Below are positions 2,035 through 55,257 of a stretch of DNA of 64,000 nucleotides, piece by piece. The stretch lies in assembly GCA_030247885.1 (NCBI GenBank), contig JAPDRO010000003.1, forward strand, positions 186,001-250,000. Reading direction: 5' to 3'. The position numbers and the translations under genes were made by a program. A model generated the notes under the pieces. It worked only from the letters and a program-made list of their open reading frames with translations, had not been told where the DNA came from and ran no database searches. The stretch is from Taxawa tesnikishii (nom. ined.) (Eukaryota > Ascomycota > Dothideomycetes > Dothideales). Every line of letters begins with the position of its first letter. Position 1 is the stretch's first letter.

Positions 2035-4480
2035 AATTGTCTCATCACCCTGCAGCCGAGCGCATATTCTTGGTGAAGCGAGTCGGTGGCATGGCCTAAG
2101 TACCAGCGATATCAGGATTTGCATCGAACGGAGAATCCCGAGGCTTGCAGAAGGAATGATTCGAAGCATATATTCAGGACTGCATTTGCTCATTCATATG
2201 TCCTTCGTAGGACATTGGAAGATGTGTAGGCTATGGCGTGGCGGGAGAGACGTGCTCTGTAATTAACAACAATCCATTTGGAACATGGCTGCCCTCAGTT
2301 TTCAGCTGCTGATGTGTACACACCTCCATTGTACACACACCGTCCTGCTGACATTCCACTTCCGCCGTCCATCACGCTCATCGTCCCTGCAGTATCCAAC
2401 AAGGGATGCTCGGACACAGAACCAAACCATGACTACGACATGACTACAATATGTGGATGTTACGGCCGATGCCCTACGCCAAAAATTTTGGAAGGACAAG
2501 TAAGAGCTTGGCTACCTTGCTTCACCTAACTCTCATTTGAGCCTCACCTCGGTGTCGTATCGGGTTCACTTGGAATCTAGTTGGTGCATTGAGCTATGTC
2601 AAACATGTGTTAGTTCTTAAGGGGAAGCCTGTCTATATCTCTACCTGCGAGATTATCTGTGACCAAAGAACCTCTTAACTCTTTTTGTCCACGACAAACA
2701 TGAGATTTGACCTGTCAACGTAGTGTTGGAAACGAAGACGTCATTGAATGCCTACGACGCGGACAAGTCTTGTATAAGAGATATTCAGTTTCGGCGACGC
2801 GGTTTGTAAACGCGATTATGTGGGTTTCTTCAACGCAGCCGATTGGAAATTGCAGCCAACTCATTTTCACCGTGTCTTGGTTACAATCATAATGTCAAGC
2901 GGTCTATGATGCTCTCTGGAGAGATGTTGATAGACGATTGAGATGAGCTAGAGTTCAAAGAAGGTGAAGTGAGGTCAACTCCGCTCCGCTTGCCTCTTGG
3001 CAATCCCCATGCAAATCTCTTTGGCGTGCCTCGGCCTTCAATCAATTACTCTAGAAGCTATCCATCACGACCGGCATCTTGCCTCTAGTCGCCCTCCCTT
3101 ACTGATACACGCGTTGGTATCAAGCACCAAACTAGCGACCTTGGATTTGTTCGCCGAACAGCCGCCCTACCAAACTCCTCACTTACGGCCGTGCTCGCGA
3201 TGAGGCTGCATGCACTCGCTACAATATGGCGTTGAAAGTCTCTAAGAGAATGTACTGATCGCCAACGGGAAGAACGAAAGCGATGACATTAACGGCTTGA
3301 TGATGAAGGAAGAGAAAGGTCACGCAATATGAAACAACAATCTGTTCTGCTACCAGTAATGCACTGTATACCTCGCTTGGTGTTCTAGAGCGAATCTGGA
3401 AGCACCTCCTACGCCCAAAACCCCGAGCCATAGACAGCGCTACCCATAGCACTAACCCTGACCGCTTTGACCAGTGTGGTTTGCTGGAAATATAAGCAAT
3501 CTCTCCTTCTTTGGCCTCTGCAACAACCGACAGCCTTAAAGGGCTGTAAGACCACAGCAAGGATCGTTCTCCGGATACGGTTCCATCAGTTGCATTAACC
3601 ATATGTTGATCCCTGAAGGACGGTTAGCCAAGTGGATTACATCTGTAGGTGGATCTCCTGTCCTCTGCGCGAGGATCTGTTGCTGTATTTCACGCACCAT
3701 GCGAAGAAGTAATATTTGCAGTGGGACTGATGAAACCGATGGTCGACCAGTGATCATATCAGTCAATTGGGTTGACTGACTGTCTACTATCGCAATTCAG
3801 TGGGATCTCTACGTGAGGGCGAGGAAAGCTAGCAAAGCTTCGACAAGAGCCACATGGGATTCGAATTCAGCATTAAGCGTCCCAGATCGTAACACGCTGC
3901 ATGTATCCAGGAGAGGAGGCATAGCTGATGTCTTGTGATGGCAGCCAATCAGTCAGTTGGAGTGTGTTGGGGACACCACGGTAGACCAGGGAGTACATCT
4001 TCAGTATCTGATTTCTTCCGCTTACATTCTCCTCGTTCTATTTTACTTTTATAAGTAAGGATATACCGAAGTCCACTGCATTAGAAGACATGCTAGTCAT
4101 CGTCAGCAGGCGGTGCTCCTCCAAAGCTCCCTCCTAAGACCAACTCATGGTTGATAAAAGTGATGGGACACCGCAAGTTTTCTGGGTATATGCTCAAACA
4201 GGTGCGCTCGCAGTGGGGTCGGAGTTTTTGGAGTGCGAGGAAGGATAAATGAGGTCGGTGTATATCTCCTCTCAAGCCGAGCTAATGAGGGCGGTGAAAC
4301 TACTAGTTCAAAGCTCGGGTAGTCTGCAGCAGACAATGACATGCCAAGACTCCCATCCCCTCATATGTTTGCTATTGTTTCGGAAACCACTTAACAACTC
4401 GCTTTCTCTTCTTTCTTCGCTCCCTGATTTCCTCTGCCGCTCTTTGACTATCAAGACTACGGATGTGAAGTGTTGTGAAC
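2035..4480. other. gene-poor interval, no supported gene
   Basis: About 2.4 kb between two F-box-like genes. Only short overlapping open frames without family resemblance or coherent splicing are present. An AT-richer stretch with pyrimidine runs just before 4480 probably belongs to the promoter and 5' leader of the next gene. I see no repeats or RNA genes. Confidence 0.5.
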
Positions 4481-48382: not shown

Positions 48383-49901
48383 TCTGATTCAGTATATGTA
48401 GGTCGACCAGGCTTAGGGAATCTGCTCACGATGATGGTACAACGAACTTTGAGAGTTCCTCGTGACGGACGCTCGACCTGACAATCACCCCACATCGATA
48501 ACCCGAACGGCTGCTAGCACGAACCCTGCAGCGGATACTATACGTTGGCATGCACAATTGAGTTCTGCATCACATGTGCAGGAAACGCTGCAAACCACAG
48601 CCGTTAGTCCAACGGCACGCTGACCTCTTCTCTTTCCTTTGTGCGCTGTTTGTCCTCTTCCGAACGCGCCTTGACAGCGCGTGTGGGCCATCTTTCAGCC
48701 GCGACCGTCGTCGCCGAAGGAACGCAACGAAGAATCGGTGTCCACCAAGAGTTACAGCACATGCGCCTCTGCTCGTCTCGCTTTAGTTCTGTCGCACCAC
48801 CCGCGGGCTACGCTCGGCTTTAGCGTGACCTCCTGAACAGTGCGTCAGCCTCGGTCGCTTGCAATTGACACCTTTCGCAGCCATCAGAAGAGAAAGTCCG
48901 CAAAGAGTCTAAGAGTAGAACTTGCGTGGTCGGAGTAGGTGAACTCTTATGGAAGGATAAGATGCTAAAGTTCACAGTTCTTCCTGTTTTGAGTTCCATC
49001 TCTGACCGTTTCTCTGTAAAGGCCTTCGATCGCGTTGTCCCATTGGATCCGGTTATACTGTCAATCAACATGAGACTGCTGTTTCAGATCCACCCCTGTC
49101 CGCTTGGGGCGAGTGCTACTAACATCTTGGGTGCTGCTACAAACGTTTTTAGCACCCAACCGTTACTAACACGCTTGTTTCTCATATCCCATGCCTATAC
49201 CCGACTTGGACGGGGCATGTGCACGCGATACCCGGCAGGGACGTGCACTATACACGATTTGGTACGTGCGATCGGATATACATGCCAGGGCTACAGTGGG
49301 CTTTAGGTGTTACTAACAGACTTTCCGACCTTGGTGTTGGTTACTCGCAACTTACTAATGCCACTAACATCAACTCAAGGATCCCTAACACCCGCTCTAG
49401 TCCCACTTACGTCTCCGCCCAGGGCATACCCCTCGATCGCATTGCCAGCCATACGGAACGTGGTAGCGTGATGATGCTATCACGGTTAATATGCGTAGGC
49501 ACGCCGTGGCTGCCACCAGCGGTCTATCACACTGCGGAAGGCGGACCTGTTCGGGACCTCATCCGCTGATATCTGTTTGCGGCAAGGCATGCATTTCCGG
49601 CGCCGGGCTTCCTGATGATCGCCGTCCCTTTTTCTTTTCCTAATGGTGTACTTGAACTATTCTTCCATTCAAACCTACTTGTCCTTCTGTTTCTTTCGTC
49701 GAGTCACTATAGATGTAATTCTGGTACACTTGGTTTCAACTTTTCATACGTTCTTCGCTTACTGCCGAAAGCTGAAGCAAGCCATCAGCCGTCGTGGGAT
49801 TGTAATCACTGACAGAGAAATAGAGATAGGTACACCGCGTAGAAACCGCGACCACGCGCCAATTCCGTTGTCAGGTTCCCATTTAATCCTTCGACGACCC
49901 C
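48383..49901. other. intergenic, no supported gene
   Basis: About 1.5 kb between divergently oriented genes (coiled-coil protein on minus, PH protein on plus). Around 49110-49370 the word ACTAAC/ACTAAT recurs five times. No coding frame here shows family features. Confidence 0.45.
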
Positions 49902-52644: not shown

Positions 52645-53092
52645 GGGATAGAGGGGATTGGGTAGAGAGAAGTTGGAGCTTGTGGTCGTTTTCGTGTTGA
52701 TGAGAGTCTGGTGGCGGGCTGTACGTAAAGGATAGATGCATGGATGAGAAGATCGGGGAATCGGTGTTTTGGGATGAGGTGGAAACGTCAGGAAGCACAG
52801 GACCGGAAAAGGCTGGTTTTGTCCGGTAATACGTGATGGGTGTATGTTGTATAACAGAACTGACGGCCGCACGGCAAATGTGTATTGTATTTCTCAATTA
52901 CTGTACAGCCTGGGCAAAGCTGCAAATGTTGCAACTTTTCCACCATACGACCAAGTACTTCGTTGCAGGCCAAACCATTGCCCGAGTACGGCGGCGTAGG
53001 GTGTGTAGCCTGACCGTGACCGTCCAGAGGTAGTTGTAAACGGCTATCTTGATGGAAGACCCTCCGTTCTGAATGTCTGCTGAGTTCACAAA

Positions 53093-54130
53093 GTGTACAC
53101 CAGCGGCGAGGAGGTCCACTTGATGCAAAACGTCGAAGTATTCCGTTGTCAACAACCTTGCCCTTATCTTCACCACTCTATTGTCATGAGACTCCTTTTA
53201 TTGTGGCCTGTTGCAGCAAGATGTAGTGGGGTTCGTCCTGCATCGTCCTTTGCACGAGCTCTCGAAAGGGTTTGCCGCCATCTTCCATGAAGGACCTTAC
53301 GGGCCAGTAACGTGGTCCCGAAAGCAGCAGCTATGTGTAAAACTGTCGACTCGTGGTGAGGTAAGACTCTACCATTGAGTGTACCAAATCTTTCGTAACT
53401 CGCCAACCAAAACCCTTCGCACCTTCAACTTTCTGTCCAAGAACGGTTGTGAAAAGTCGAATGCATCCATCTCGAACTGGGAAAGACGCCTTGCGTGATA
53501 GGTCCAACGGGGAACAGCATACATTAGAAACGGTAAATTTGACAGATGCTCATCCACGAACGTGTCAAGGCGGTGAAGGTCCGAAGCTCTTCGCGATGAG
53601 AGGTCTCCGGAGTAGTTCATGTCAATGCTTCCATACGTTAACGCACCGCCCTGGAGATGCTCCAAACACCACTTGACACTGTCTTTGTGCGCCACACCCG
53701 TCTCTATACGGAGATACTCAAACTCGGGTGAAATGTCTGGGATCTCGCGTAAGAGGCAATTTTTGGCAGACTGGTGAACAAGGTTGACTCTCAATCTATA
53801 TTCTGTTTCTATTACGGTTAGAAATTGCCCGCGTTTGTTGATTTGCTCCAACAGCACCTCTTCGGGGTTCAGGTCAGGAGAATCATCGTCTCTGATGCCA
53901 ACGGCCGCGGCCAGCTTCTCCAGCCCCAAGGAAAACCGCTCCAGAGCCGCCATGGCCCCGTCGCGTGAGCGCTTCTGCAGCTCTTTCGCGACGATTTTGA
54001 TCCAGAGGAACGTTCCTTCGGCCTTCCTCAGGAAAGTTTCTCTCAAGTGGGAATGCAACTGGGCCGGTTAACGTCCACGGCGTGAAATTTAGTCCACCTT
54101 CTCTTCTCGTGTCATAGCGTTGCAATACCT
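53093..54130 (-). pseudogene. NLR/ankyrin-type receptor remnant
   Basis: The coding signal begins with HLRETFLRKAEGTFLWIKIVAKEL, the element that follows the NACHT ATPase core in fungal NLRs. A winged-helix-like block comes next (YRLRVNLVHQSAKNCLL, EFEYLRIETGVAHKDSVKWC, LDTFVDEHLSNLPFLMYAV). Ankyrin-type repeats come last (HHESTVLHIAAAFGTTLLAR, DDAGRTPLHLAATGHNK). No P-loop or Walker B is present upstream, because the opposite strand there holds the HeLo-type remnant. The reading frame is interrupted about twice. Intact relatives sense non-self or damage and switch on a partner effector. Head-to-head position beside the HeLo remnant suggests a former receptor-effector pair. Confidence 0.6.
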
Positions 54131-54411
54131 TTAGTAATCGGCGTGAATGTTGCGATACTTTAGGACCACATGTTTGTTGGCAGTATGTCGAAGATCAAAA
54201 CGGCGAGGCTGGACGCGGGGTGCATGGGGCGGTATAACCTGCAGGGTTCCATCTTCATGTAGGATTGTCGTGATTCCCCTGCGACCGAACGATGCAAGAT
54301 AACAACCGTGCCTTTAGACGAGCCAGACTTGGTTCTTTCTAAGCTTGTGCCAAGATTTATCCAGCAAAGATTGTTCGTTCGTCTTGTCTTCCCTTTCCAC
54401 CGCCTCGGGTC

Positions 54412-55257
54412 ATGGAAGCCGCTGTCATCCTCGCTGGTCTGTTCAACAACGCTGTCGATCGTTTCGAGTATATCCAGATGGGTCGAAACTTCGGTAAAGA
54501 CTAAAAGACAAGCATCCTGAAGCTCGATGCATCAAGACTCAGATTATCGCGATGTGGCTAGTCAATTGGGGCGGGTAGGATCCTGGATAAGGTGCAGTCA
54601 CTGGACCTTTGGACATATCTGCAAGAGGATATACGTGAAGCGGAAAGCATACTAGGTCGGATAGGGAACCTTTTTTTCTGTATATACAGAGGGAGTGTCG
54701 AAGCGGTTCAGATCTCGAGCCTCTCCGGCCGGATCCCGGCACTGTATGATTCTGCGATAGACCTTGATCGCGCGACTGCCGCGCTTCATCAGACAATACG
54801 CGACCCTGCAATCAGACGTCAAGGCCAATCTGGCCTGCGATACAAGCTGTGATGGGCGCTGTAAGAGTAAAGGCGCTTCTCTTAACTGGTAGAAGACGTC
54901 ACTGCTTTGGTAAACGACCTCGTCATCATGTTTCCAGCCGCGGAGGCTCCTCGGCGACAGCTCTGCGAAACAGAGTTAGAAGAGGTGAAATGGTCAGACA
55001 CTCTCCCGATATCGAGAGAGGCGGCTGTCAGCCAGGACGATTGCTTGGTAGCTGCCATCTCGAAAGCCATAGGGCAAGCCAAAGGCCACTCTTGCAACGT
55101 AACCTCTTCCGGAAACAACAACTCTGGTTTGCAGTTAGGCGTGAACCCAGGGACAATTGGTGACTGTATTTTGGAGGAACGAAGTAGCGGCGGATGGTTC
55201 GGTTTCTCCCAGGGAACCATGCTCGTCACGGGTTACGAGAGGGCAGAACGGAAGTGA
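54412..55257 (+). pseudogene. HeLo-domain cell-death effector fossil with PP-type amyloid motif
   Basis: From ATG 54412 the reading MEAAVILAGLFNNAVDRFEY, IQMGRNFGK, LKLDASRLRLSRCG matches the start of the HeLo (HET-S/prion-inhibition) domain. LWTYLQEDIREAESILGRIG and VNDLVIMFPAAEAPRRQLCE continue its helical part. Near the end (about 55111-55160) stands GNNNSGLQLGVNPGTIG, which fits the pseudo-palindromic N-x-G-x-Q-x-G-x-N core of PP amyloid signalling motifs. In intact relatives such a motif templates amyloid folding from an NLR partner, and the HeLo domain then acts at the plasma membrane in heterokaryon incompatibility or immunity. This copy looks broken, with a few interruptions, and appears moderately old. 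Treat it as a fossil. Confidence 0.6.

Follow-up and report, generated by a model that had tools for sequence, protein, structure and literature searches.

Adjacent NLR and effector genes are the typical layout of fungal amyloid-signalling pairs (PMC5485727), and the locus described here can be set beside several of them. In HET-S/NWD2 of Podospora anserina, a HeLo effector and an NLR are divergently transcribed, as they are here; that pair differs in its two-copy HET-s repeat motif, its WD repeats and its unbroken het-s gene, the present locus having a PP motif (PMC4344463). The same source describes the nwd2 of het-s strains as a pseudogene, which provides a precedent for a dead NLR next to a HeLo-family gene. 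HELLP/PNT1, from P. anserina with a counterpart in Chaetomium globosum, resembles our locus in that its cell-death protein bears PP and has an NLR next to it, but the HELLP domain is HeLo-like (HELL) (PMC7885112), whereas in Pfam rescans the translation of our gene (P0001) and eight relatives matched PF14479 and not PF17111. Arthroderma otae and A. gypseum have HET-S homologues that likewise combine a HeLo domain, a C-terminal PP motif and an NLR neighbour (PMC3321046). The Arthroderma NLRs are described there as NB-ARC/TPR proteins with a matching N-terminal motif, in contrast to the ankyrin NLR remnant found here, whose relatives carry PF24883 and which has no N-terminus; and, unlike the Arthroderma pairs, both genes here are dead.

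The locus lies in a 64,000-nucleotide stretch of DNA (the window), positions 186001-250000 of contig C23 in a host assembly of 29.4 Mb. The gene order is head-to-head, with an NLR at 54154-53176 on the minus strand and a HeLo-PP gene at 54400-55182 on the plus strand. The features are as follows.

54412..55257, plus strand: HeLo-PP effector pseudogene, with six in-frame stops, an altered start region and a frame that overruns the end of its relatives
54424..54990, plus strand: HeLo domain (PF14479), HET-S-type pore-forming, residues 5-193 of P0001
54928..55257, plus strand: candidate open frame of 109 codons beginning with an ATG, located past the final in-frame stop, with the PP motif and without most of the HeLo domain
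55090..55161, plus strand: predicted PP amyloid-signalling motif (PF17046, Pfam name Ses_B), a Pfam match above cut-off
55120..55146, plus strand: pseudo-palindromic core NSGLQLGVN, read in the sequence
54068..54154, minus strand: faint upstream NLR extension, detected by tblastn, with in-frame stops (two TAA in the match)
53369..54067, minus strand: NLR remnant, a 232-codon open frame covering the post-NACHT and internally deleted winged-helix region
53176..53439, minus strand: start of the ankyrin region, in another frame than the 232-codon piece (Pfam Ank and tblastn)

The gene at 54412-55257 was a HET-S-type HeLo gene and is now dead. The initial annotation had proposed a HeLo-type start here, and P0001, the 281-codon plus-strand translation with X at each stop, matches PF14479 with an E value of 7e-27 over profile positions 7-197 of 205, so that the absence of a HeLo match is excluded. 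The structural matches of P0001 are 2wvo, 2wvn and 2wvq, all entitled SMALL S PROTEIN, the best being chain 2wvo_A (E 1.7e-24), and 2WVO is listed for the HET-S HeLo domain in a review (PMC12881547). A HELLP-type (HeLo-like, PF17111) identity was rejected, as only PF14479 and PF17046 match P0001 at E up to 1. The PF14479 search of the host's own genome recovers 54421-54990 on the plus strand (E 6.3e-26) despite the six stops, and the same search matched none of 14 control genomes. Inside the HeLo match there are one TGA, one TAG and four TAA, all in one reading frame, with four of the six within 12 codons. Similarity to the relatives in tblastn runs from 54400 to 55182 in a single frame throughout, and introns or frameshifts therefore do not account for the stops. 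At the N-terminus about six residues are missing in the multiple alignment; in tblastn the alignment has no gap and begins at 54400, which lies four codons before the present ATG, in which case the ancestral start codon would be lost. With six stops and an altered start, the gene cannot be translated into a protein whose N-terminal helix is intact. At the other end the relatives stop shortly past the PP motif and the frame of the fossil continues beyond it.

The PP segment read as NSGLQLGVN was upheld by PF17046, which matches the open piece at E 3.2e-7 (30.5 bits) and P0001 at E 1.8e-6 (28.2 bits), in both cases over the cut-off of 23.2 bits; a 2025 paper equates PF17046 with the PP motif and regards its Pfam name, SesB, as a misnomer (PMC12261475). 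In a control search one of 14 control genomes matched PF17046, none over cut-off. A profile built from the motifs of six relatives gives 33.5 bits at the locus, against 9.4 bits for the next forward ORF and 8.9 bits for the best reversed ORF among 9,856 ORFs each way (52 overlapping loci totalling 266,834 bases plus the window, some ORFs being duplicated). Chance does not explain the match. Judged by eye against the published PP consensus FxGx(x)NxGLQLxGxNxGxL (PMC3321046), the fossil retains the core N-x-G-L-Q-L..G-x-N-x-G, and it keeps seven of eight family-invariant columns; the phenylalanine common to all seven HeLo-PP relatives is a serine. On the strength of these profile matches we regard 55090-55161 as a predicted PP amyloid-signalling motif. 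A text search of the literature for the motif strings found no paper, a weak result since such alignments sit in figures.

The initial annotation considered a HeLo domain followed by PP an uncommon pairing, a view that did not survive the database search. With P0001 as query, seven proteins were found at E up to 1e-3 (4,212 candidates), and six of them (P0002-P0006 and P0008) carry HeLo and PF17046 in open frames without stops, at 36-52% identity to the fossil; the seventh, P0007, has HeLo without a PP motif and was omitted from the motif profile and the decay comparison. P0015, a hypothetical protein of Lophium mytilinum found by another query, also has HeLo and PF17046 in an open frame, and L. 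mytilinum, a dothideomycete, is the closest named relative of the HeLo-PP gene. All seven HeLo-PP proteins are 259-264 residues long and have their full architecture in common with the fossil, from which they differ in lacking stops, and in their alignment FSG, G.Q and N.G.I occur in 7/7. Pfam rescans of these proteins gave the same domains. No relative was found in a search of a viral collection. The PP motif, named in 2012, was itself defined partly on the HeLo-domain HET-S homologues of the two Arthroderma species (PMC3321046), and another paper gives 98 PP hits in 579 HeLo-related proteins, a figure from which the share of HeLo proper is not separated (PMC4518210). HeLo plus PP is a natural protein family, and with seven open-frame members and the 2012 definition an uncommon pairing is not supported.

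By its matches, the minus-strand piece is the tail half of a NACHT/winged-helix/ankyrin NLR, and it is dead. A database search with the 232-codon frame (1,794 candidates) found five proteins with PF24883 (NACHT-like), PF22939 (winged helix) and ankyrin repeats: P0009 was best (E 2.9e-30), followed by three named Coniosporium proteins (1.8e-28 for Coniosporium apollinis, 6.3e-28 and 8.7e-26) and a fifth match at 2.4e-9, so that the closest named NLR relatives belong to Coniosporium, likewise dothideomycetes. Judging by these relatives of the two genes, the host is probably a dothideomycete as well. The five NLR queries pooled in tblastn gave similarity from 54154 to 53336 and then, in another frame, from 53439 to 53176. 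Pfam found no match in the 232-residue frame, and Ank in the 84-residue piece (22.7 bits, cut-off 21.1, E 1.1e-4). The head-to-head NLR/ankyrin remnant seen by the initial annotation is thus real, although its left end at 53093 was placed about 80 bases beyond detectable similarity, which ends at 53176. As lesions, the remnant shows stops in the part that precedes 54067, the lack of about 35 residues within the winged-helix region and the frame change; about 18 residues are extra compared with the relatives. Upstream of 54154 no NACHT similarity was detected by tblastn and the N-terminus is absent too, nor is there a PF24883 or PF05729 match in the window. A second copy of the remnant was not found in the genome (one candidate scored). 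The earlier impression that both parts are decayed was accurate, given the six HeLo stops on one side and, on the other, the NLR stops, winged-helix gap, frame change and missing NACHT.

Repeat-induced point mutation (RIP) was considered as the cause of this decay and largely set aside, the composite index being negative at both gene remnants (-0.32 and -0.40; mean over the whole window -0.54). With scoring windows of 1 kb, a positive composite index is reached only at 48501-49750. The usual single-index thresholds for RIP are 0.89 for the product and 1.03 for the substrate index. The 500-base scoring window that begins at 53001 (product 0.95, substrate 0.97) would pass them, and so would the one beginning at 55251 (product 0.92, substrate 0.93), in both cases with a composite just below zero. 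For the HeLo gene there is no support for RIP, which is only mildly possible at the ankyrin end.

The locus is probably the relic of a two-gene, PP-type NLR/HeLo amyloid-signalling cell-death module. The ancestral NLR, made up of NACHT, a winged helix and ankyrin repeats, would have oligomerised upon ligand sensing, and a short PP motif at its N-terminus would have seeded an amyloid fold; this fold would then have templated the C-terminal PP motif of the HeLo protein encoded by the divergent neighbour gene, and the HeLo domain of that protein would have permeabilised the membrane and caused cell death. Both genes are now dead. The PP motif of the NLR, the partnership of the two genes and the signalling steps are proposed by analogy with HET-S/NWD2 and HELLP/PNT1. 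The orientation of such clusters differs between species (PMC3321046), and the divergent order therefore supports a pair only weakly.

The rest of the genome bears on this reading. The initial annotation had expected any intact pair elsewhere in the genome or in other strains; in this genome no intact PP pair was found, since PF17046 at E up to 1 detected no second PP motif (one candidate scored) and the six-relative profile, run over 52 loci and the window, placed the fossil alone above chance, in four entries that are all copies of it. No PP-bearing NLR was found by either search, and both can miss divergent or intron-split motifs. Of the outcome that the initial annotation had set against itself, the absence of PP from homologous loci and from every NLR of the genome, the first part did not occur, PP being present in relatives, and the second did, PP being found in no NLR of the genome. 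PF14479 has four matches in the genome at three loci: the fossil, contig C33 and C23:1636836. The last is a 435-codon frame with no stop, in which neither the motif profile nor, among the matches listed, a de novo search found a terminal motif and near which there is no PF24883 match. PF17111 (HELL) has six matches, none at the window locus. The remaining HeLo locus is again a pair.

C33 pair (L013, G000:C33:1070001-1079500): HeLo gene at about 1336-2111 of the locus, minus strand, head-to-head with an NLR at about 2353-3816, plus strand

The C-terminus of the C33 HeLo protein and the N-terminus of its NLR have the motif NNxAxFGxNNxCxxFGQISG..FN in common, with a local score of 76 against a best of 48 in 5000 shuffles. 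Pfam gave no relevant match for either end, and by eye the motif is not PP, PUASM or GDQN in the forms printed in the literature consulted. The GGTFNIGT of the HeLo end is loosely like sigma submotif B, given as GGTQNINT (PMC3321046), and the C33 motif may be a distant sigma variant. Both C33 genes look damaged. The HeLo gene has one frame change, and its two matches overlap by 4 bases, which leaves no room for an intron; P0014, a 100% match from another source, begins after the frame change, and the lesion may thus not be an artefact of the present assembly. The NLR frame is interrupted by two stops in the stretch that runs from the motif through NACHT, one of them inside the NACHT match; the first could lie within an unrecognised intron. 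The de novo search covered 22 stretches around NLR and HeLo/HELL matches and yielded pairs in 10 of them, of which only the C33 pair resembled a signalling motif, in both respects among the matches listed. The pairs at L014, L037, L040, L042, L043, L047, L050, L051 and L052 were set aside by eye as low-complexity, tandem or short chance matches, and no shared pair was listed for the window stretch. At L035 (G000:C18:244468, 249816) a HELL-domain gene is located about 5 kb from an NLR whose NACHT match is free of stops; among the matches listed, the de novo search found no short motif common to the two.

A less likely reading is that the two dead genes have no connection, the NLR having belonged to another pathway than the HeLo-PP gene beside which it came to lie. 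It draws on the NLR relatives: four of five have an N-terminus (P0013 begins inside NACHT), none of the five lists PF17046, and in the three whose N-termini were compared with the motif region of the fossil no similarity stands above shuffles, the score being reached by 1152 (P0012), 1504 (P0009) and 403 (P0010) of 3000. P0011 was outside that comparison; its N-terminus is identical to that of P0012 for the first 51 residues. The NLR lineage of the remnant may accordingly use another motif. P0009, P0011 and P0012 have in common a short G/N/Q-containing N-terminus before NACHT, HNQYIGQRA..ATQI.GNVGT.YSS, perhaps a signalling motif unlike PP. The genome also holds other NLR/ankyrin stretches (13 PF24883 matches, two with an internal stop, and at least 50 matches to P0012, for which 43 of 59 candidates were scored). 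However, closely related fungal NLRs can differ in their N-terminal domain (PMC4986451), so relatives without PP do not decide the partnership. Adjacency of NLR and effector is, moreover, the typical layout noted above, and at C33, where the genome has its one further HeLo gene that ends in a motif, this gene faces an NLR bearing that same motif. The relic of a single module is the reading we prefer.

It is very improbable, though conceivable by analogy, that while the HeLo domain is dead the open frame downstream still makes a candidate HeLo-less PP peptide, an amyloid decoy or prion seed. In HET-s, the HeLo domain has lost its killing activity. All six stops lie upstream of a 123-codon PP-bearing frame, an arrangement with a chance of 0.03 if stops fell evenly over the 281 codons, and identity between fossil and family, taken relative to that within the family, amounts to 0.76 up to the last stop, rises to 0.93 beyond it and reaches 1.04 in the motif (one-sided column permutation p 0.006, on 152 + 91 of 250 columns, leaving out those that held a stop or were covered by fewer than four relatives). 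The split was, however, picked after the stops were seen, so that the lesser divergence of the tail is only a hint, and a region of lower conservation has less to lose. Family-invariant columns were kept in 36/48 and 20/22 cases respectively, with no significant difference (Fisher p 0.20), the motif has lost one of its eight invariant residues and the frame extends beyond the family's end. If true, the PP tail would act on PP-type cell-death pathways met via hyphal fusion, as a natural, independently evolved counterpart of HET-s. A reading in which both genes are intact, with introns or assembly errors giving rise to the stops, is scarcely credible even with a single assembly, since the alignable HeLo domain has six stops without a frame change, four of them within 12 codons, and the NACHT half of the NLR is gone, so that sporadic errors are not the cause.

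The locus in the window is an ordinary decay of a known kind of cell-death module and not a new system, and it records how a filamentous fungus lost an amyloid cell-death pathway. Both the window pair and the C33 pair, the one further PF14479/NLR pair found in the genome, look damaged, and such parallel damage would fit a relaxed need for, or selection against, this kind of allorecognition in the lineage. The C33 pair, for its part, offers a candidate amyloid-signalling motif, recognised from its sequence, for which Pfam has no relevant match.
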